Positions 1-19,937 of a stretch of DNA of 64,000 nt are shown here, piece by piece. Numbering within the stretch: position 1 is the first letter of the stretch; every line of letters starts with the position of its first letter. A model generated the notes under the pieces. That model had not been told where the DNA came from. It made no database searches and saw only the letters and a list, made by a program, of their open reading frames with translations. The position numbers and the translations under genes are program-made. Source of the DNA: a bacterium (GTDB taxonomy: Bacteria; Eisenbacteria; RBG-16-71-46; CAIMUX01); assembly GCA_030431975.1 (NCBI GenBank), contig JAUIHP010000005.1, forward strand, positions 186,001 to 250,000, read 5' to 3'.

Positions 1-402
1 CCGGTCGGCGAGAAAGGGAACGCGACTCATGGACTCGGTTCCACCCACAACGACCGTATCGGCTTCGCCCGCGCGGAGAAGACGCGCGCCCTGGGCGATG
101 GCCTCCATTCCTGAGGCGCAGGCCATATTGATCGTGGAGGAAACCGTCGTGTCGGCAAGGCCCGCGCCGAGCGCGATTTGTCGGGCGGGATTCGGCCCGG
201 TCCCGGCCTGACGGGCGCAACCGATGACCACCCGGACCTCTCCCCGGTCTTCGGGCAGGTCCTGTAGAGCGTCCCGGACGACCTGAACACCGATCTCGAC
301 ACCGGTCAGGGGTGAGAGTGCGCCCAGAAACTTTCCGATCGGAGAACGACGGGCTCGAACGATCGCGATGGAATCGCGTTGGGCGCCGGAAGCATCAGAC
401 AT
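1..402 (-). CDS. Acetyl-CoA acetyltransferase (thiolase), N-terminal part, cut by window edge
   Basis: The reading frame starts at ATG 402 after a GAGGAGG ribosome-binding site and runs off the window at base 1 after 134 codons. The protein begins MSDASGAQRDSIAIV and has the thiolase N-terminal pattern RRSPIGKFLG, then NMACASGMEA with the nucleophilic Cys at about residue 95, then GGTESMSR. Thiolases condense or cleave acyl-CoA and acetyl-CoA. A second, complete thiolase lies at 22214-23410. The two differ around the active Cys (ACASG here, VCGSG there), so they are paralogues with probably different chain-length roles. The C-terminal catalytic His and Cys lie outside the window and cannot be checked. 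Confidence 0.93.
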   Translation of the reverse strand, partial: MSDASGAQRDSIAIVRARRSPIGKFLGALSPLTGVEIGVQVVRDALQDLPEDRGEVRVVIGCARQAGTGPNPARQIALGAGLADTTVSSTINMACASGMEAIAQGARLLRAGEADTVVVGGTESMSRVPFLADR

Positions 403-782
403 GGCGGTCCCTCCTCCTCGAACTGAAAAGTACTCGGCCAAGGCAAACGCACAGCCTAACGCTCGAAAAGACCCCAAATCAATCCGTGAGCGGTACGGAG
501 CCCCTTCCAGCCGGCCCTGCCCTACCTCGAGGAGAGTTCGAACCGTCCATCCTGGCTCGAGGCGGGCGGAGTGGGTCCTGCCACAAAACGCGCCGTCGCA
601 GGCTCCCGCGGTCCGTTTTTGCGCCCACCTGTGGCACCGGATTCACAGGTCCCCGTTCTCCCGAGCGGGTCGCCTTGCCTGTATACTCCTCCCTCGCAGT
701 AAGTTGTGAACTCAACCCTGCCACCCCCACCGTCCGGCATGACACTTACCCCCGTGTAGTGAGCCGGCCGCGAAATGAACAG
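403..782. other. Divergent intergenic region, 380 bp
   Basis: No credible gene is seen between the divergent thiolase and Omp85-like genes. A TATACT hexamer at 682-687, preceded directly by TG, could be a -10 element for the rightward operon, but no good -35 element stands 16-18 bases upstream. A sequence resembling a sigma-54 -24 element (TGGCAC) near 634 lacks the matching -12 GC and was not accepted. Confidence 0.4.
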
Positions 783-2222
783 GTGCGGGAGGCTGGAAAG
801 AACGCAATCCGGCAGCGGAAACCGTTCGCACGACTCTGGGGACTTTCTTTGACCGCGACCGCTCGACACTGCAGCCGCCTGGTGCTGTTCGTACTTCTCC
901 TCTCGCTCTGCGCGACCGTGTTTCCGGTGAGTTCCCGGGCAAACCCCGGGCCGGGTGACTCCAGATCGCTGGAAGTCACGGGTTTGGAGTTCGAGGGACT
1001 CGAGAAGACGCGCGAAACTCTGGCCCGACGGGCTGCGGGAATCGAAGTGGGCCACACCGTGACGCCTGCGCAACTGGCCGGTCTGGAGTCACGGCTCGAA
1101 CGCTCCCGGCTCTTTCGGAAGGCCGAGGTCCGAGTCCTTGCGGGAGCGGAACGAGGTGAGGTTCAGCTCGTCATTCGAGTCGAGGAGAGCCGGCCCCACT
1201 TCCGATTCGGGCTGGGCCACCAGGACCTGGACGGTTGGTTCCTCGAACCGGTCGAATTCAACCTCGACAACCTTACCGGTCGCGGCGAGCACTTCGACCT
1301 GTCGTGGCGGATCGGCTTCCGAACGAACGGGCTCCATCTCAACTGGCGCCTTCCCTCGCCCGAGTCCCATCGAACCTACGTCGGTTGGGGATGGCACGGG
1401 GTGTCCCACGATCGACTCTACTTCGCCGAGAGCACGGAAATCGCTCACGAGGTGCGTCGGCAGAGTTTCGACGTCAACGGTTCGGTTGATTTAGGGCGCG
1501 GGTTCTACTGGGAAGGCAGCGTCGCCTACGAGAGAACGGCCGTCGACTCCTCGGCACGTGTCTATGTCGACTCGCCCAGCGGCGCCGAATCCGGTACCGA
1601 GATTCGCTACGCACAGCTCCCTGAGACGATTCAGGCGTCGGTCGACACGACGATGGGAGTTCGTGTTCGGAGCGCGTGGATTTTCGACGGACGTCGCGGG
1701 CAGGAATTGGCTCGTGAGGGCACCTGGGGTCGTGTCGTTTACGAAGCCCTCAGCTCGGAGAGAAGACCGATCCACCGCGGAGAGTTGGATCTACGCGCAT
1801 ACAAGGCACCCTTTCCCGGCTGGCAATTGGCCGCGCGGCTCCATGTCGAAGCGGTCTCCAAGAACTCACCGTTCCATGAACGCATCTACCTCGGTGGGCT
1901 CTACACGGTCCGCGGATACGCCACCCATGTCTTCTCTCCGCCGGAAGGACACCGACGTCGAGTCGTCGTCTCGGCGGAGATTCGTCGCGTCTGGGTAGGA
2001 ACCGCGGAAGCGCCCCGGGTTGCCGGGTTGGCCTTCGTCGACTTTGGTCGTGCCTGGAACTCGTCCGCCACGAATCCAACGCATGCCGCGGCTGCCGGCT
2101 TCGGTTGGCGGGTCGGGGTTCCCTGGCTGGGATATCTCGGTTTGGACGTCGGCATCCCTCTCGATGACAGCATCGTGGACGAGAGTTTTCATCTGAGTAC
2201 GAGCCTGGGATGGACGTTTTGA
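783..2222 (+). CDS. Omp85/BamA-superfamily outer-membrane protein with one POTRA-like domain
   Basis: The start is uncertain. GTG 783 gives a charged N-terminus before a hydrophobic segment ending VFPVSSRA, and TTG 849 gives a shorter classical signal peptide; neither has a strong Shine-Dalgarno site. After the signal comes a POTRA-like unit (LEVTGLEFEGLEKTRE to RLFRKAEVRVL) and then a C-terminal surface-antigen (D15) barrel. The barrel contains YLGGLYTVRGY, which matches the VRGY loop motif of Omp85 proteins, later GLAFVDFGRAW, and ends in an aromatic residue (SLGWTF) as outer-membrane beta-signals do. One POTRA and about 480 residues is much shorter than BamA, so a TamA- or FhaC-like role or an uncharacterised subfamily is more likely. 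It is the first gene of a rightward run that includes NtrYX. Confidence 0.85.
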   Translation: MREAGKNAIRQRKPFARLWGLSLTATARHCSRLVLFVLLLSLCATVFPVSSRANPGPGDSRSLEVTGLEFEGLEKTRETLARRAAGIEVGHTVTPAQLAGLESRLERSRLFRKAEVRVLAGAERGEVQLVIRVEESRPHFRFGLGHQDLDGWFLEPVEFNLDNLTGRGEHFDLSWRIGFRTNGLHLNWRLPSPESHRTYVGWGWHGVSHDRLYFAESTEIAHEVRRQSFDVNGSVDLGRGFYWEGSVAYERTAVDSSARVYVDSPSGAESGTEIRYAQLPETIQASVDTTMGVRVRSAWIFDGRRGQELAREGTWGRVVYEALSSERRPIHRGELDLRAYKAPFPGWQLAARLHVEAVSKNSPFHERIYLGGLYTVRGYATHVFSPPEGHRRRVVVSAEIRRVWVGTAEAPRVAGLAFVDFGRAWNSSATNPTHAAAAGFGWRVGVPWLGYLGLDVGIPLDDSIVDESFHLSTSLGWTF

Positions 2223-3055
2223 ATCGCCCACGGCTTTCCGAATGTCGCGTGAATGCCGCGGATCCGCCGCGCCATTCGCGACGGCATCGAACCCGGGCAA
2301 CGGTGGCCCGCACGTTCATCGTGTTCATCGCGGACACTGCGTTCTTCGCGCACACGACGTTCCTCGCGCACTCTGCGTCCCGCTCGTTCGCTGTGATCAC
2401 AGCGATAACCACGCTCACATTGCTGACTGTATTGGGAGTGGGTCTCGCCCGGGCCGAGGACGCCGGGACTCCCGAACCCAGACTGATCGCTCTCGAGCCT
2501 GCCATCCGAGGGCCATGGATCGTTTGCCGCGTGCTCGGAGAAGGTCTTCCCGGAGAGGCAGCCTTGGAGACACTGAAGAGCGGACTACCGACTTCGATTC
2601 TGCTCGACTTTCTTACGCACACGCCGGGCAGCAGTGAGTCCCGATCCCGACGGGTCCTCGTTCAGGTCGAGCCCGACCTTTGGGAAGGTGATTACCGCGT
2701 CCGCTGGAACGAAGGAGAGCATCGTTATCCCGATCTGTCCGGACTGCGAGTGGGGCTCGGGCATCTGGGTCCATTCGCGGTCGCTCCTGTGCCCACGGAG
2801 GAAAGTGCTCGACGTCGCTTCGACGCCCGAATGCAGGTGTTCCCGGTCGCAGCCGAGGACAAGGCCGCAGAACTCGGCATTCGACAGGAAGACGAGACTT
2901 CCAGCGAGCGACAGCGATCGATCGGCTTCGGCAGCCTCTTCCGCTTTCTCTTCGGCAAAAGAGAGTCGCGTGAGGTCGTGACTTTGGAACTGGGTACGGA
3001 ACCCGTCGCAATCGATACGCTACCGCGAATCGAAGTCGAGGACCCTGTCCGGTGA
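2210..3055 (+). CDS. Exported DUF4390-like protein upstream of an NtrY kinase
   Basis: It overlaps the previous gene by 13 bases and the kinase by four (GTGA), so it is translationally coupled. The annotated start at 2210 gives an odd Arg/His/Thr-rich N-terminus with short repeats (FIVFIADTAFFAHTTFLAH). GTG 2393 would instead begin directly at a signal-peptide-like segment (TLTLLTVLGVGLARA), without a clear ribosome-binding site. The mature part has a pattern reminiscent of DUF4390 (VLGEGLPGEAALETLKSGLP), a family known to sit next to NtrY-type kinases in proteobacteria. That assignment is from memory of the family. A late GSLFRFLFGKR segment is unexplained. A role in periplasmic signal input to the kinase is inference. 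Confidence 0.6.
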   Translation: MDVLNRPRLSECRVNAADPPRHSRRHRTRATVARTFIVFIADTAFFAHTTFLAHSASRSFAVITAITTLTLLTVLGVGLARAEDAGTPEPRLIALEPAIRGPWIVCRVLGEGLPGEAALETLKSGLPTSILLDFLTHTPGSSESRSRRVLVQVEPDLWEGDYRVRWNEGEHRYPDLSGLRVGLGHLGPFAVAPVPTEESARRRFDARMQVFPVAAEDKAAELGIRQEDETSSERQRSIGFGSLFRFLFGKRESREVVTLELGTEPVAIDTLPRIEVEDPVR

Positions 3056-4539
3056 AGTCCTGGAGAGCACAGTTGCTGTTGCTTGTGGCCGCGGTTGGAC
3101 TCGCGCCGCTGGTACCGGCCGGTTTTGCTTTGCGCTCGCTTCTCGCGGAAACGGCTCGTCCGCTTCTCGGCCCCGAAATGAAGAACGGGGTCGACACGGC
3201 TCTCGAACTGACACGCGAACTCATGGAAGCGGAGCGGATCGCGTTTCGGGATCAGATCGAGGCCGGAGCTCTCGTCGATACACTGGACCGAAATCTCTCG
3301 GATTCGGATCGGCACACTCTGGAGGCACTGAAACTGCAGCCCGGTGACGACCCGGTTCGTGTCGAACTGGAATCGGGACTCGGTTTCGTTGCCCTCGCGA
3401 CTGCAACCAGACCTGGCGACGATGAAGTCTTTGTAGAATCCGCACCAGGCGCCCCTTCGAAAAAGGCTCAGACTTCGGGGGCGTGGGTTTTCGCGCCGCT
3501 CTCAGAGACCCTGGTCACCCACAGTCGGAACGTCGAGTCGGCCGTTCGTCGAATGGAGTCTTTCCGGCGGGACCGGGAAGCGTGGCTGAGCAGTGCACTC
3601 GGCGCATTCTTCATTGTCGAGCTGGGAATCCTCGCCCTCGCTCTGGGACTGGGGATCCTGCTCACGCGAAGGCTGACGGCGCCGATCACTGCATTGGAAG
3701 GCGGGATCGAACGCGTGGCGCAAGGTGACCTCGAAACGTCCGTCCGTCCACGCGGCCACCCGGAGCTCAAGGTCGTCCTCGATCGGTTCAACCGAATGGT
3801 TTCGCAACTCCGCTCGCAGCAGGCGGAGCTTCTGCGGCTGGAGAAGCAGACGGCGTGGCAGCAGATGGCGCGTTCCCTGGCGCACGAGATCAAAAACCCG
3901 CTGACACCCATCCAGCTCGCGACCGAAGAGGTCCACAATGCCTACCGGGGAGACGATGAATCGTTCCGGATCCTTCTCGACGAGAGCACCAGGATCATCG
4001 AGGAGGAAATCAGCCGGCTGCGTGAACTGGTTGCCGGGTTCTCGCAGTTGGCGAAACCGGCGACATCCTCGCAATCCGTCGACATCGCCGAAGTCGCCGT
4101 CGATCTCGGCCGCGTCTACGGCGACCGTGTCCAGATCGATGTATCGAGCGCGGATGCGTTTCTCCCCACGGTTCGGGGGGACCTGGAAGCTCTGCGAAGA
4201 GTCCTACTCAACCTCATCAACAACGGGCTCCAGGCACAGGACGCTGCCGGACGGGACGGGCCCGTGAAACTAAGGCTGCGATCGACGGATCGCGAGGTCT
4301 TCGTCACAGTTTCGGATCACGGCGAGGGAGTTCCAGAAGAGAACCGCGCCCGTATCTTCGAGCCCGACTTCACCACTCGGTCCGACGGAATCGGACTTGG
4401 GCTGGCCATTGCCCGAAGCACAGTCGAGGGTCATGGCGGCACGCTGGAACTCGTGGTTCCGGACTCGCCGACGGAGGCCGCCGAACCCGGATCGACATTC
4501 CTGCTCACGCTGCCGAGAAGAAACGGAGACTCCGCATGA
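3052..4539 (+). CDS. NtrY-like membrane sensor histidine kinase
   Basis: It starts at GTG 3052, overlapping the upstream stop. The 495 residues show a first membrane segment (about 4-28), a periplasmic stretch of roughly 150 residues, a second membrane segment (about 180-205, FFIVELGILALALGLGILL) and a HAMP domain. The HisKA H-box LAHEIKNPLTPIQLA follows with the phospho-acceptor His at residue 278, then a HATPase domain with N-box LLNLINNGLQA, DHGEGVP and GIGLGLAIAR. The H-box style is that of NtrY/NtrB kinases. No PAS domain is seen between HAMP and HisKA, unlike many NtrY proteins. The response-regulator gene overlaps it by four bases, so the two should form one two-component system. Confidence 0.93.
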   Translation: MKSWRAQLLLLVAAVGLAPLVPAGFALRSLLAETARPLLGPEMKNGVDTALELTRELMEAERIAFRDQIEAGALVDTLDRNLSDSDRHTLEALKLQPGDDPVRVELESGLGFVALATATRPGDDEVFVESAPGAPSKKAQTSGAWVFAPLSETLVTHSRNVESAVRRMESFRRDREAWLSSALGAFFIVELGILALALGLGILLTRRLTAPITALEGGIERVAQGDLETSVRPRGHPELKVVLDRFNRMVSQLRSQQAELLRLEKQTAWQQMARSLAHEIKNPLTPIQLATEEVHNAYRGDDESFRILLDESTRIIEEEISRLRELVAGFSQLAKPATSSQSVDIAEVAVDLGRVYGDRVQIDVSSADAFLPTVRGDLEALRRVLLNLINNGLQAQDAAGRDGPVKLRLRSTDREVFVTVSDHGEGVPEENRARIFEPDFTTRSDGIGLGLAIARSTVEGHGGTLELVVPDSPTEAAEPGSTFLLTLPRRNGDSA

Positions 4540-5990
4540 AACACCGCGTACTCATCGTCGATGACGAGAAGAACATTCGACGCACACTGCGAATGGTCCT
4601 GACGAGTGCGGGCTACGAATGCTTCGACGTCGACTCCGGGGAGGCGGCCTTGGCCCATGTACGGGACGAGCCGGCGGACGTCGTGTTGCTGGACATCGGC
4701 CTTCCGGGACAAGACGGGATCGAGACTCTCAGCATGCTGAAGTCAGACCTTCCGACGTTGCCGGTAATCATGATCTCCGGTCGCGCCACCGTGGCCGCGG
4801 CGGTGGAGTCGACGCAGAAGGGAGCGTTCGACTTTCTGGAGAAACCGCTCTCGCGCGATCGCGTCCTTCTTGCCGTTCGCAACGCACTTCGAGTGTCGGA
4901 ACTCGACACGACCGTTGACCAGTACCGAGCGCAGGAGGCACGCGACCGGGCCCTGATCGGGGAGAGCGATGCTTTGCAGGACGTTCGCGATCGCGCCGCC
5001 CGGGTCGCGCCGATGAGTGCAACCGTGTTGATCACGGGCGAAAGTGGAACGGGAAAGGAACTCCTGGCCCGGTTTGTTCACGACTCCAGCCCGCGGAAGG
5101 ACCAGGCGTTCATCAAGGTCAACTGCGCAGCCATTCCCGAAGAGCTCATCGAGACCGAACTGTTCGGGTGCGTCCGCGGCGCGTACACCGGCGCCGATCG
5201 GGCGCGAGACGGCAAGTTCCAAGCCGCCGACGGGGGCACGCTTTTCCTCGACGAGGTCGGAGACATGAGTCCGAAGGTTCAGGCCAAGGTCCTCCGAGCC
5301 ATCCAGGAAAAGGAAATCGAACGTGTCGGGGAGTCGACGACCCGCCAGGTCGATGTCCGCATCATCGCGGCCACGAACAAAGATTTGGAAGCCGAAGCCC
5401 AAAGTGGAGGCTTCCGCGAGGATCTCTTTTACAGGCTGAACGTCGTTCCCCTCCGGATTCCACCGCTCCGCGAACGCAAGAGCGACATTGCGCGCCTGGC
5501 GCGTCACTTTGCCCTGCGGTACGCAAAGGAGAACGCGCTTCCCGAACCCGATTTCACTACTTCGGCGCTGGCCGCCCTCGTCGAATCCGACTGGCCGGGA
5601 AACGTCCGCGAACTTCGCAACGCCATCGAACGTCTCGTCATTCTCGGCGCCGGACCGACCCTCACCATCGATGACGTGCAGAACATCGTCGGTTCGGGGG
5701 CAGCAACGACGGGAGCCGAACCTCGCGTTGAGCGAGAAGAATCGGAAGTGCGCAAAGACGCCGCCAGCGGCTTGCCCCTTCCGACGATCGAAGTGGTCGA
5801 AACCCTCGGCGGTTTGTCTGCCGCACGTGACGAGTTCGAGCGGATCTGTATCGAACTGGCGCTCGATGCCACCGGGGGTAATGTCTCGCAGTCGGCACGC
5901 AGGCTCGGCGTCGAACGGAGCAACCTGCACAAGAAGATGGCCAAGCACGGGCTGGAGGCACGACCGCCCCGATCGGCCAACGGAGGCTGA
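4536..5990 (+). CDS. NtrX-like sigma-54-dependent response regulator
   Basis: A 484-residue three-domain activator. The receiver domain has Asp53 ([11 protein letters not shown]). The AAA+ domain has Walker A GESGTGKE (168-175), a sigma-54 contact loop GAYTGA (215-220) and arginine-finger region [11 protein letters not shown]. The C-terminus is a Fis-type helix-turn-helix ([20 protein letters not shown]). The contact loop is GAYTGA rather than GAFTGA, a conservative change tolerated in some natural activators. The preceding FGCVRG also differs from the usual FGHEKG. It should activate sigma-54 RNA polymerase after phosphorylation by the kinase at 3052-4539. Two sigma-54-type promoters in this window (7975-7992 minus, 17972-17989 plus) are possible targets. 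Confidence 0.94.
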
Positions 5991-6023
5991 CTGGGGTGCG
6001 ACCCGGCGACTCGCCGAGGGCAG

Positions 6024-6075
6024 GAACGAGCGGCGGGAACAGGCGGCGGGAACGAGCTGCGGGAACGAACGCCGG
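6024..6075. repeat. Four tandem 13-bp repeats
   Basis: Four consecutive 13-base units begin at 6024, 6037, 6050 and 6063 (GAACGAGCGGCGG and close variants). They lie between the ntrX-like stop and the ribosome-binding site of the next gene. They are probably untranslated. They look like a replication-slippage array, though a leader function cannot be excluded. Confidence 0.75.
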
Positions 6076-6100
6076 CGGCAAGGTAAAGGAGCGATCGATC

Positions 6101-6916
6101 ATGAATCTGACACCCCGTCGAAAGCCGGAGCAGCGCGGCCGTGCAGCCGCGGCTTACGTCCCCTTTTGTCTCGCGGCCGGTCCCGTGTTGAGCCATGCGA
6201 AACGGTGGCTGGAAGGAGCGCAGTGGCTGGCCGCAGAACAGGTGCGGAGTGCGGTAGTGCTCGCATTGGGTCTCGTAGGTCTCACGTTGAGCCTCGCGCT
6301 TCCCGGTGCGTCGCACGCTGCGCCTCAGTTGACCGGATCCTCACCTGTTCCGGATGGAAGTTCGAGTTCTCAACCCAGGCTACGGGTGGCTCTCGAAGCC
6401 TTTGGAAGCCTGGCTCCCGACGACAAAGCGAACGCTGCAAACTCACCGTTCTTGGTTCCGATCGAGAAGGGCGGCGGCGGAATCTCGCTCAGCGCCGGCT
6501 ACTTCATCAACCGCTCGCTGGAACTGGGCCTTCGGTTTCAAGGGGCTGCTCACAAAACGACCGGCGCGCCCGTCGAGTACGGAATCGGATCGCTGCTTCT
6601 CGAGTTCCGCTGGTTTCCTTCGAAGTTGGGGTCGATTCGACCTTACGTCATGACGGGACTGGGAGGATCCAACCTGGTTGCGGACGGCGGCGGCGCCCGA
6701 ACACAGATCCGGGGCGAGAGTGCGGCCGTTGGATTCGGGGCACTCTTTCCGCTGACCTCACGTCTCGGCCTGGACCTCGCCGCACGCTGGCAGTGGATCA
6801 ACTGGGACGAGACCCGTGTTCCGGTGGAAGTGCCCGGGAACGATGATCTCTATACCCCGAACGACCGAAGTGGAATGACGGGGCAACTCGGTGCGGGAAT
6901 GAGCTTCTTCTTCTAG
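6101..6916 (+). CDS. Outer-membrane beta-barrel protein (OmpA/OmpW-like size)
   Basis: The start at ATG 6101 follows AAGGAG at a good distance. The hydrophobic export signal (VVLALGLVGLTLSLALPGASHA) lies unusually far in, at about residues 48-70; GTG 6242 would give a conventional signal peptide but has no ribosome-binding site. The mature part is about 200 residues with alternating strands (GGISLSAGYFINRSLELGL, IRPYVMTGLGGSNL, LDLAARWQWINW) and ends in MSFFF, a typical barrel C-terminus. No enzyme motif is seen. It ends the operon carrying the Omp85-like protein and NtrYX and is followed by a strong terminator. It may be an output or a sensed component of that system, which is inference. Confidence 0.75.
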   Translation: MNLTPRRKPEQRGRAAAAYVPFCLAAGPVLSHAKRWLEGAQWLAAEQVRSAVVLALGLVGLTLSLALPGASHAAPQLTGSSPVPDGSSSSQPRLRVALEAFGSLAPDDKANAANSPFLVPIEKGGGGISLSAGYFINRSLELGLRFQGAAHKTTGAPVEYGIGSLLLEFRWFPSKLGSIRPYVMTGLGGSNLVADGGGARTQIRGESAAVGFGALFPLTSRLGLDLAARWQWINWDETRVPVEVPGNDDLYTPNDRSGMTGQLGAGMSFFF

Positions 6917-17376: not shown

Positions 17377-17540
17377 GTTCGAGGCTCCTTCAAAAGGCGG
17401 ATAGGACCTTTTCCTGCCGTATCCAACAACCGTTCAGACAGTTACGTCCGAGCTACCCACTCGTTTTCCGCTGCCGTCCCAGAATGATTCAAACCCGGAT
17501 TTTAGTGAACTCGAGCCCGTGGCTCCAGTCTTGTCCATTC

Positions 17541-17808
17541 CGACAGGATCTCGCAGGTCCCCTTCCCGTGGACGCGATTCTCTTCTCTTCCGACCTGCTG
17601 AAAGAAACGACGGACGACATCGCGCAGGAGGTTCGGTCTCTTCGCGACGAAGCGATTCCGATCGGTGTCATCGACCAATTAGGGGGCGGCCTGTTTCGGT
17701 GCGGGAATGAACGAGCACCTGGCGAAGCCTATTGATGCCCGCCGGCTCGGCGAAGTCGTGGATCGACTCGTCCGCCCACGGACAGATAAGGATTCCGAAG
17801 CCGCATAG
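17541..17808 (+). pseudogene. Frameshifted receiver-domain remnant
   Basis: One frame reads LPVDAILFSSDLLKETTDD and then IAQEVRSLRDEAIPIGVIDQ, which follows the beta3-alpha3-beta4 pattern of a response-regulator receiver with the acceptor Asp replaced by Ser. About base 17690 the pattern shifts to the next frame as CFGAGMNEHLAKPIDARRL then GEVVDRLVRP, a classical receiver C-terminus containing the conserved Lys-Pro, ending at TAG 17806-17808. Neither frame has a start codon with a ribosome-binding site. This looks like the decayed end of a hybrid kinase or regulator gene. No upstream kinase part is recognisable. Confidence 0.65.
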
Positions 17809-17971
17809 CTAGTGGCTGGCTACCCAATCCGTCGAACTCCCCTTCTGGGACGACCGAAATGGTCTCATCCTCTCGCGCCGTGGACTCACCAGGCTGCCCA
17901 CGCACGTCGGTTCCGGGTCCAACCTCTCTTCAGTTCAACGTTTGTGCATGGGTTCCCTTAGCGCCATTTCG

Positions 17972-17989
17972 TTGGCACCGCACTTGCAT
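17972..17989 (+). promoter_or_regulatory. Sigma-54 (-24/-12) promoter upstream of the TPR/PDZ gene
   Basis: The site TTGGCACCGCACTTGCAT has a perfect TTGGCAC -24 box and a perfect TTGCAT -12 box with GG-N10-GC spacing. Transcription would start near 17999 and leave a leader of about 160 bases before ATG 18159. The next gene encodes an exported protein, and an NtrX-type activator is encoded at 4536-5990. Confidence 0.75.
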
Positions 17990-18040
17990 CACACGTAGAT
18001 TCGCGGCGACGTTGCAGGAGCGGTCGCCGGAGCGTTTGCG

Positions 18041-18090
18041 ATACGGCCTGTAGTATGGCCCGGCAATGCGGCCCTGCAGTGCGGCCTCTA
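18041..18090. repeat. Tandem 12-13-bp repeats in the leader
   Basis: Units begin at 18041, 18054, 18066 and 18079 with a shared core (A/G)T(A/G)(C/T)GGCC. They fall inside the predicted leader of the sigma-54-driven gene, between the promoter and ATG 18159. Their purpose is unknown. Confidence 0.6.
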
Positions 18091-18158
18091 ACACGGTTTG
18101 CGATCCGGCACCCGCGTTCGGATCCTCGGTTTCGATCCACATAGCCTTCGGAGAGTTC

Positions 18159-19937
18159 ATGGTTTATTCCAAGTCCGCCGACGACAGACACCATTCCCAG
18201 TGGATGTATTTCCACAGCAGGGCCGCATGGGTTCTGCTCGTTCTCTTCACCGTTCTCGTGACCCCTGTGCGAGCGAACGACAGCGGGTCTCCGAGCGGGT
18301 CTCTGGAGGTTCTGCGCACACGGGCTAACGAAGCGTTCGAGGACGGTCGCTGGGCCGACGCGGTTCCGCTCTTCGAGGAGCTCTACCGCCGGAATCCGGA
18401 TCATTGGCAGTCCGCCTTTCGGCTCGCGCACTGCAAGCACCTTGCAGGCGACTTCGAAGGCTCGATACAGGCCCACCGCGAGGCAGCGAAGTTTCCGCCG
18501 GCACGGCCGGCATCTCTCTTCAACATCGCCTGTGCAAACGCTCAGCTGGGACGAACCGACGAGGCGATTTCCGCGCTCACGGACGCGATCGAAGCCGGCT
18601 ATGACGATCTCGAATCTATTCGGACGGATCCGGAGCTCGCTTCGATCCAGTCCGATCCACGTCTCGAGGCGCAGGTCGAAGCAGCCTTCGGAGACGGAGG
18701 CGACTTGCCTCCTTTGACCTATGAGAACCTGGCGGAGCGCTTGGAAGCCGAGGAACGGGACGGCGCATCGGGTGCGCTGCTCGTCCTCCGCGACGGGCAG
18801 CCCTTCTTTCGAGAAGCGTTCGGGCTGGCCAACCGCGAGAAGGGAATCCCTGTAAACCCAAGGACGATCTTTGCCATCGGTTCGACACCCATCGACTTCA
18901 CCCGGGCCTCGATCCTCCTGTTGGCTCAGCGTGGAAAACTGAAACTCGAAGACTCGGTGACCCGGTACTTCGACAACGTTCCGTCCGACAAGACGGGAAT
19001 CACTCTCTGGCACCTGATGTCCGGTCAATCCGGTCTTCGAGACTTTCATGACCTGCCGGGCGATCGTGACCCCGATCACGCCTGGATCGACCGTGACGAA
19101 GCGATCCGTCGGATCTGGAATCACAAGCTGCTCTTCGCGCCGGGAGAGGGCGAGGAACATTCGCACTCTGCCTGGGGCGTCCTTGCCGCCGTCGTCGAGA
19201 TCGTCAGTGGACAGACGTATCCGGAGTTCACCCGGGAACATCTCTTCGGCCCGGCCGGGATGAACGACACCGGCTTCTTTGGTGAACCGATCCCCGAAGA
19301 GAGACTCGCCATCGGCTACGGCGACGCAAGCGACGGCAAGATCAACGCTCCGCCATACTGGGGGCGGACTTCGTGGCTGGTCATGGGAAGTGGCGGACAA
19401 ACCTCGACCATCGACGATATGCATCGCTGGCACGAGTCGCTACGTTCCGGACGCATCCTCGAAGACGAGTGGCTCGACCTCTACTGGGCGCCGCCCGGCG
19501 CGCTCCTGGTCGGCGGAGACATGTTCGGGTTCGAAATCGCCTACATGCAAAACCCGCAGGACACGTTCATCCTGATGAGCAACGCCGTCCCGGCCCAAAG
19601 GCAGCGATCCTGGCGTCGTCTGATCGACGACCTGGTCGGACTGGCGGCTCCACCAAGCGGGCCGATGAGTCCGTACACTCTTGGCATCTCGATCGGAGTG
19701 GAAGCCATTGGAGTCCGTCGCGTCTTCGTCATCACCGGCGTGGCCCCGGAAAGCGCGGCCCAAGAGGCGGGGCTCGAAACCGGCGACGAGATTCATGCCG
19801 TCGACGACGTCGGGACAGACTCGACAGACCTTGTGGAGATGCTGCAGCCAGCCCTGCGCGACGGCCGAGCGGTCGTCCTGACCATCCACCGAGACGGCGA
19901 GCCTCGTGAAGTCACGGTCCAGCCAAGGAAGCGGTGA
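18159..19937 (+). CDS. Exported TPR - degenerate beta-lactamase fold - PDZ protein
   Basis: ATG 18159 follows CGGAGAG. An export signal ends near VLVTPVRAND (residues 20-42). Residues about 50-170 form TPR-like helices (ANEAFEDGRWADAVPLFEEL, ASLFNIACANAQLGRTDEA). Residues about 190-490 align with the serine beta-lactamase/PBP4 fold (FFREAFGLANREKGIPVNP, LWHLMSGQSGLRDFH, FGPAGMNDTGFF). Residues about 505-592 are a PDZ domain (VAPESAAQEAGLETGDEIHA). The catalytic motifs are altered: SxxK reads S242-T-P-I245 and the YxN site reads H334-S-H336, so classical acyl-enzyme chemistry is unlikely. It may be a binding or scaffolding protein. A sigma-54-type promoter precedes it. Confidence 0.85.
   Translation: MVYSKSADDRHHSQWMYFHSRAAWVLLVLFTVLVTPVRANDSGSPSGSLEVLRTRANEAFEDGRWADAVPLFEELYRRNPDHWQSAFRLAHCKHLAGDFEGSIQAHREAAKFPPARPASLFNIACANAQLGRTDEAISALTDAIEAGYDDLESIRTDPELASIQSDPRLEAQVEAAFGDGGDLPPLTYENLAERLEAEERDGASGALLVLRDGQPFFREAFGLANREKGIPVNPRTIFAIGSTPIDFTRASILLLAQRGKLKLEDSVTRYFDNVPSDKTGITLWHLMSGQSGLRDFHDLPGDRDPDHAWIDRDEAIRRIWNHKLLFAPGEGEEHSHSAWGVLAAVVEIVSGQTYPEFTREHLFGPAGMNDTGFFGEPIPEERLAIGYGDASDGKINAPPYWGRTSWLVMGSGGQTSTIDDMHRWHESLRSGRILEDEWLDLYWAPPGALLVGGDMFGFEIAYMQNPQDTFILMSNAVPAQRQRSWRRLIDDLVGLAAPPSGPMSPYTLGISIGVEAIGVRRVFVITGVAPESAAQEAGLETGDEIHAVDDVGTDSTDLVEMLQPALRDGRAVVLTIHRDGEPREVTVQPRKR

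Follow-up and report, generated by a model that had tools for sequence, protein, structure and literature searches.

A sigma-54 promoter very probably lies ahead of the gene for an exported TPR/PDZ protein with a degenerate beta-lactamase-family domain

The 64-kb stretch of DNA analysed here (the window) carries at 18159-19937 a predicted gene for an exported protein of 592 residues; this gene and the features given below by window coordinates, the 312-6916 cluster aside, lie on the forward strand. It is a single-gene unit, with the next gene on the opposite strand. Its likely start is at 18159 rather than 18066: a GGAGAG lies upstream of 18159, and the N-terminus that follows is hydrophobic and reads as a signal peptide. 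Domain searches placed a TPR region at residues 54-114 (TPR_16, 18318-18500), with weaker TPR matches up to residue 146, a PF00144 beta-lactamase-family domain at residues 197-442 (18747-19484; E 2e-47), which structure matches also identified, and a PDZ domain at residues 512-587 (19692-19919). The domains and the hydrophobic N-terminus thus bear out the original prediction of an exported TPR/beta-lactamase/PDZ protein. Upstream of the gene lies a sigma-54 promoter core at 17972-17989. With the transcription start (+1) predicted at 17999 from sigma-54 geometry, 12 bases past the C of the -12 GC, the 5' leader would span about 160 nt (17999-18158).

The PF00144 domain has the fold and overall sequence of the PF00144/S12 serine hydrolases (AmpH, DD-peptidase R61, FmtA, LACTB and EstB), and its predicted structure matched DD-peptidases, FmtA and EstB. 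Unlike these hydrolases, the protein has its SxxK, YxN and HxG motifs altered or lost and has TPR and PDZ domains added. Alignment with homologues revealed that at residues 242-245 (18882-18893) Ser-Thr-Pro-Ile has taken the place of SxxK (K to I), and at residues 334-337 (19158-19169) His-Ser-His-Ser that of YxN (Y to H and N to H). At the third motif, (K/H)-x-G, the segment is shortened and HxG is missing when the protein is aligned with canonical paralogues. Relatives of the canonical type encoded by this genome keep SxxK and YxN. Five homologues at 49-59% in other lineages (Phycisphaerae and other MAGs; L055, L056, L057, L058 and L136) share the replacements, so that SxPI stands in place of SxxK and H-x-H (HSH) in place of YxN in all six family members, and the clade carries a new near-invariant stretch, DRDPDHxWIDR. 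The original prediction had spoken of a degenerate beta-lactamase, and these clade-conserved replacements (SxPI and HSH) both uphold and sharpen that description. The clade is sporadic in its distribution, and TPR and PDZ domains are variably present in it. A literature search turned up no beta-lactamase pseudoenzyme that also has PDZ and TPR domains.

Judged from its sequence, the beta-lactamase-fold domain, lacking the serine-hydrolase catalytic residues, probably serves for binding, either in the periplasm or elsewhere in the envelope. It is possible, if rather unlikely, that the domain instead remains an enzyme whose active site has been rebuilt from Ser242, H334-x-H336 and the DFHD...DRDPDHAWIDR loop: the replacements and the D/H-rich segment are almost invariant across several lineages, tighter than decay would leave, but the general-base Lys and the Tyr of the fold are lost and the HxG of motif 3 is not visible. 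Around the altered site the structure model is unreliable: residues 240-244 and 298-309 have pLDDT values below 50, too low for the active-site geometry to be judged.

Direct reading of the promoter core, TTGGCACCGCACTTGCAT, gives a -24 element TTGGCAC (17972-17978), a 5-bp spacer CGCAC and a -12 element TTGCAT (17984-17989). The GG (17974-17975) and the GC (17986-17987) are separated by exactly 10 bases, just as the original prediction had described. All consensus bases of the known -24/-12 RpoN promoters (TGGCAC-N5-TTGCW) are therefore present together with their 10-bp GG-GC spacing. This is the sole sigma-54 match without mismatch in the window, where the runner-up has two mismatches, and it also has the top window score (19.1 bits) under a matrix derived from other sites of the same genome. 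Also like known RpoN promoters, the core sits about 170 bases 5' of the start codon in a genome that holds rpoN and activators; unlike them, it has no recognised activator site upstream. As to rpoN, whose absence from the genome the original prediction had named as refuting it, we found two complete copies, L001 (contig C13) and L002 (contig C3), both with the RRTV(A/T)KYR box. A genome search further returned about 35 strong PF00158 matches to sigma-54 activators of the AAA+ type (E < 1e-56) and 6 weak ones. The core is an ordinary example of a well-known promoter type. We found no earlier link of this TPR/beta-lactamase/PDZ gene to sigma-54 in the literature search.

Which of these activators would work at the promoter is a separate matter. 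The window holds one candidate at 4536-5990, a protein with receiver, AAA+ and Fis-type HTH domains, adjoined by a HAMP histidine kinase at 3052-4539. Within 312-6916 an Omp85-type protein, the histidine kinase, the sigma-54 response regulator and a beta-barrel protein are clustered, and this cluster looks like an envelope two-component system. The original prediction had proposed an envelope response in which the activator in the window serves this promoter. Such an arrangement would suit a response regulator with its kinase, clustered with Omp85 and beta-barrel genes, and an exported target protein; however, the activator gene is more than 12 kb from the promoter and is one of about 35, no activator genes adjoin 18159-19937, and no shared or recognisable binding site for it lies at the promoter. 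A search for 6-bp dyads in the 230 bases upstream (17741-17971) detected no enhancer dyad; sigma-54 activator binding sites are often imperfect. Nothing beyond co-occurrence in the window connects this activator with the promoter, and we consider the pairing improbable. A short way upstream of the promoter, 17484-17808 contains an apparent frameshifted receiver-domain remnant, with its second frame reading GMNEHLAKPIDARRLGEVV; identified by eye only, it looks like a non-working response-regulator remnant that may form part of a possible enhancer region.

The leader itself offered little. Its predicted RNA fold is not unusual (z = +1.2). The 13-bp tandem repeats noted in the original prediction do exist, as a single weak array at 18057-18086 with 2.3 copies matching at 88%. 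None of 300 leader shuffles reached its repeat score of 46, but 8 of 378 window segments of the same size did. We therefore rejected it as a regulatory array: its length is insufficient, and such arrays are not uncommon in the window. The bases of the promoter core can also be read as an overlapping sigma-70-type promoter (TTGGCA, 18 bp, TAGATT) that would drive the gene without an activator, on the strength of one weak 9/12 match at 17972-18001, with 0.1 expected in the region. We give this reading very little credence, since its first hexamer is the sigma-54 -24 element itself and its second is poor (TAGATT), while the sigma-54 core matches without mismatch and sites of its type are enriched across the genome.

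That enrichment emerged from a survey of the 6.19-Mb genome (59 contigs), for which site sets were assembled from pattern searches and retrieved stretches. Promoter position was assigned to any site that fell between genes and had the start of a co-oriented gene no more than 350 bases away. The genes around sites, and hence the gene starts, come from a home-made codon-usage caller trained on activator genes; by this measure 7.2% of random positions fall in promoter position. The full pattern TGGCACN5TTGCW occurs four times genome-wide, each time in promoter position. For TGGCACN5TTGC the figure is 10 of 11 (p = 4e-11 against the background), a placement 5' of co-oriented genes beyond chance, compared with 3 of 17 sites that have a broken -24 core and a perfect -12. 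Total counts do not exceed those of the reversed control pattern (exact sites, 4 versus 16; TTNC, 41 versus 62). That the core is a chance match, with the gene transcribed from another promoter, could draw on these totals and on the four distant homologues scanned, which have no site, but is most improbable given that about 0.1 of the TTGC sites would be expected in promoter position from the one match inside genes (which make up about 82% of the sampled DNA) and ten were found there.

Two sites show that this lineage makes use of the motif. A TGGCAC-N5-TTGC site (L097, 3002-3016) stands before the gene for a 265-aa protein (MTQRQHYIELPTS...), and the same gene carries the site in two relatives (L205 and L212). 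In addition, the flgB promoter position is common to this genome and one relative. The 265-aa protein has no Pfam match, and a gene for a membrane protein is transcribed divergently from its gene. For the promoter at 17972-17989 itself, the family offered no orthologue of the 18159-19937 gene for comparison, and no sigma-54 site was found upstream of the homologues scanned, which were four of the five (0 of 4, L055-L058). One match from the phylum, at 33%, was rejected as an orthologue, being a canonical hydrolase.

Taken together, the placement of 10 of the 11 TTGC sites, the rarity of the motif and the presence of rpoN and activators imply that 17972-17989 is very probably a working promoter; the two rpoN genes, the roughly 35 strong activators and the concentration of consensus sites before genes likewise bear out the sigma-54 control originally predicted. 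On the sequence evidence, we hold with high confidence that this is a genuine sigma-54 promoter, from which the gene of the exported dead-enzyme protein would be transcribed on its own. In the mechanism we propose, sigma-54 RNA polymerase would bind the GG (-24) and GC (-12) as a closed complex, and one of the approximately 35 AAA+ activators, bound upstream and answering to a putative signal, would remodel this complex with ATP. Transcription would then start near 17999 and yield a transcript of this gene alone; the beta-lactamase-fold domain of the exported protein, its catalytic residues lost, probably has a binding role in the periplasm or envelope beside TPR and PDZ. Expression of an exported protein whose enzyme domain is dead in a conserved way would thereby depend on an activator, in a lineage about which little is known; for that lineage the genome-wide check also yields a clean set of sigma-54 promoters.

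Control of the exterior of bacteria has been described as a role of sigma-54 (Francke et al. 2011, PMC3162934), and the original prediction had likewise suggested an envelope response and a genome scan for clustering of sites on envelope genes. Such a scan indicated an excess of exported-looking genes behind intact-TGGCAC sites, 16 of 30 (53%) compared with 73 of 221 other genes (33%; p = 0.026, by a crude signal-peptide rule), so that an envelope focus of sigma-54 targets in this genome is weakly supported. As in the published theme, sites here also stand before flagellar genes and before genes for lipoproteins and further exported products; the enrichment differs from it in being modest, and many targets are unnamed. 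A flagellar rod gene and the gene for GroES are among the genes behind sites. The GroES gene (L099, G000:C10, about 400961-400976) has a TGGCAC-N5-TTGTA site 135 bases upstream. Control of GroES by sigma-54 is known in Bacteroidota and has been suggested in Planctomycetota (PMC12316311). The resemblance of these targets to known sigma-54 regulons (PMC3162934, PMC12316311) counts in favour of a real promoter at 17972-17989.

The most interesting result of the survey is an unusual further group of sigma-54-like sites at other places in the genome, whose -12 element seems to be altered in a lineage-specific way. The -13 G of sigma-54 promoters is normally near-invariant. We nevertheless found that TGGCACN5TTTC, with T at -13, lies in promoter position at 9 of 15 sites and outside genes at 12 of 15 in this genome (class sites L091 at G000:C28:60804-60818, L092, L096, L106, L107/L161, L110/L155, L039, L175 and L181). 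In three relatives of the same order (compared sites L245 and L184-L248), promoter position was seen for 0 of 18 TTTC sites versus 12 of 24 TTGC sites (Fisher p = 1e-4), a comparison in which the relatives' TTGC sites were sampled in part, G007 least, and the gene caller had been trained on the genome of the window. The promoter of the flgB-flgC operon (L091), which adjoins an activator gene, has TTTC here and TTGC at the matching flgB promoter of a relative (L245). The core at 17972-17989 belongs to the ordinary TTGC class and not to the altered TTTC class.

The pair of RpoN proteins is old and common to the family (G001 and G002), and in the tree the C13 copy of this genome sits on a long branch. 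Paralogue-specific single-base differences between promoters are among the cases cited in PMC3162934, at -11 in Rhodobacter sphaeroides and at -12 in Bradyrhizobium japonicum. Like these bacteria, the present genome combines two old RpoN paralogues with two promoter classes one base apart (TTGC and TTTC); unlike them, it has the change at -13, and the link between class and paralogue is hypothetical. We tentatively suggest, while thinking it unlikely, that sigma-54 promoters here are split into a TTGC and a TTTC class, each read by one of the old RpoN paralogues. If this split were true, the genome would have two distinct sigma-54 regulons, and the 18159-19937 gene would fall into one of them. 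With a lineage-specific -12 change in a genome that encodes two RpoN proteins, paralogue-specific reading of promoters becomes testable.
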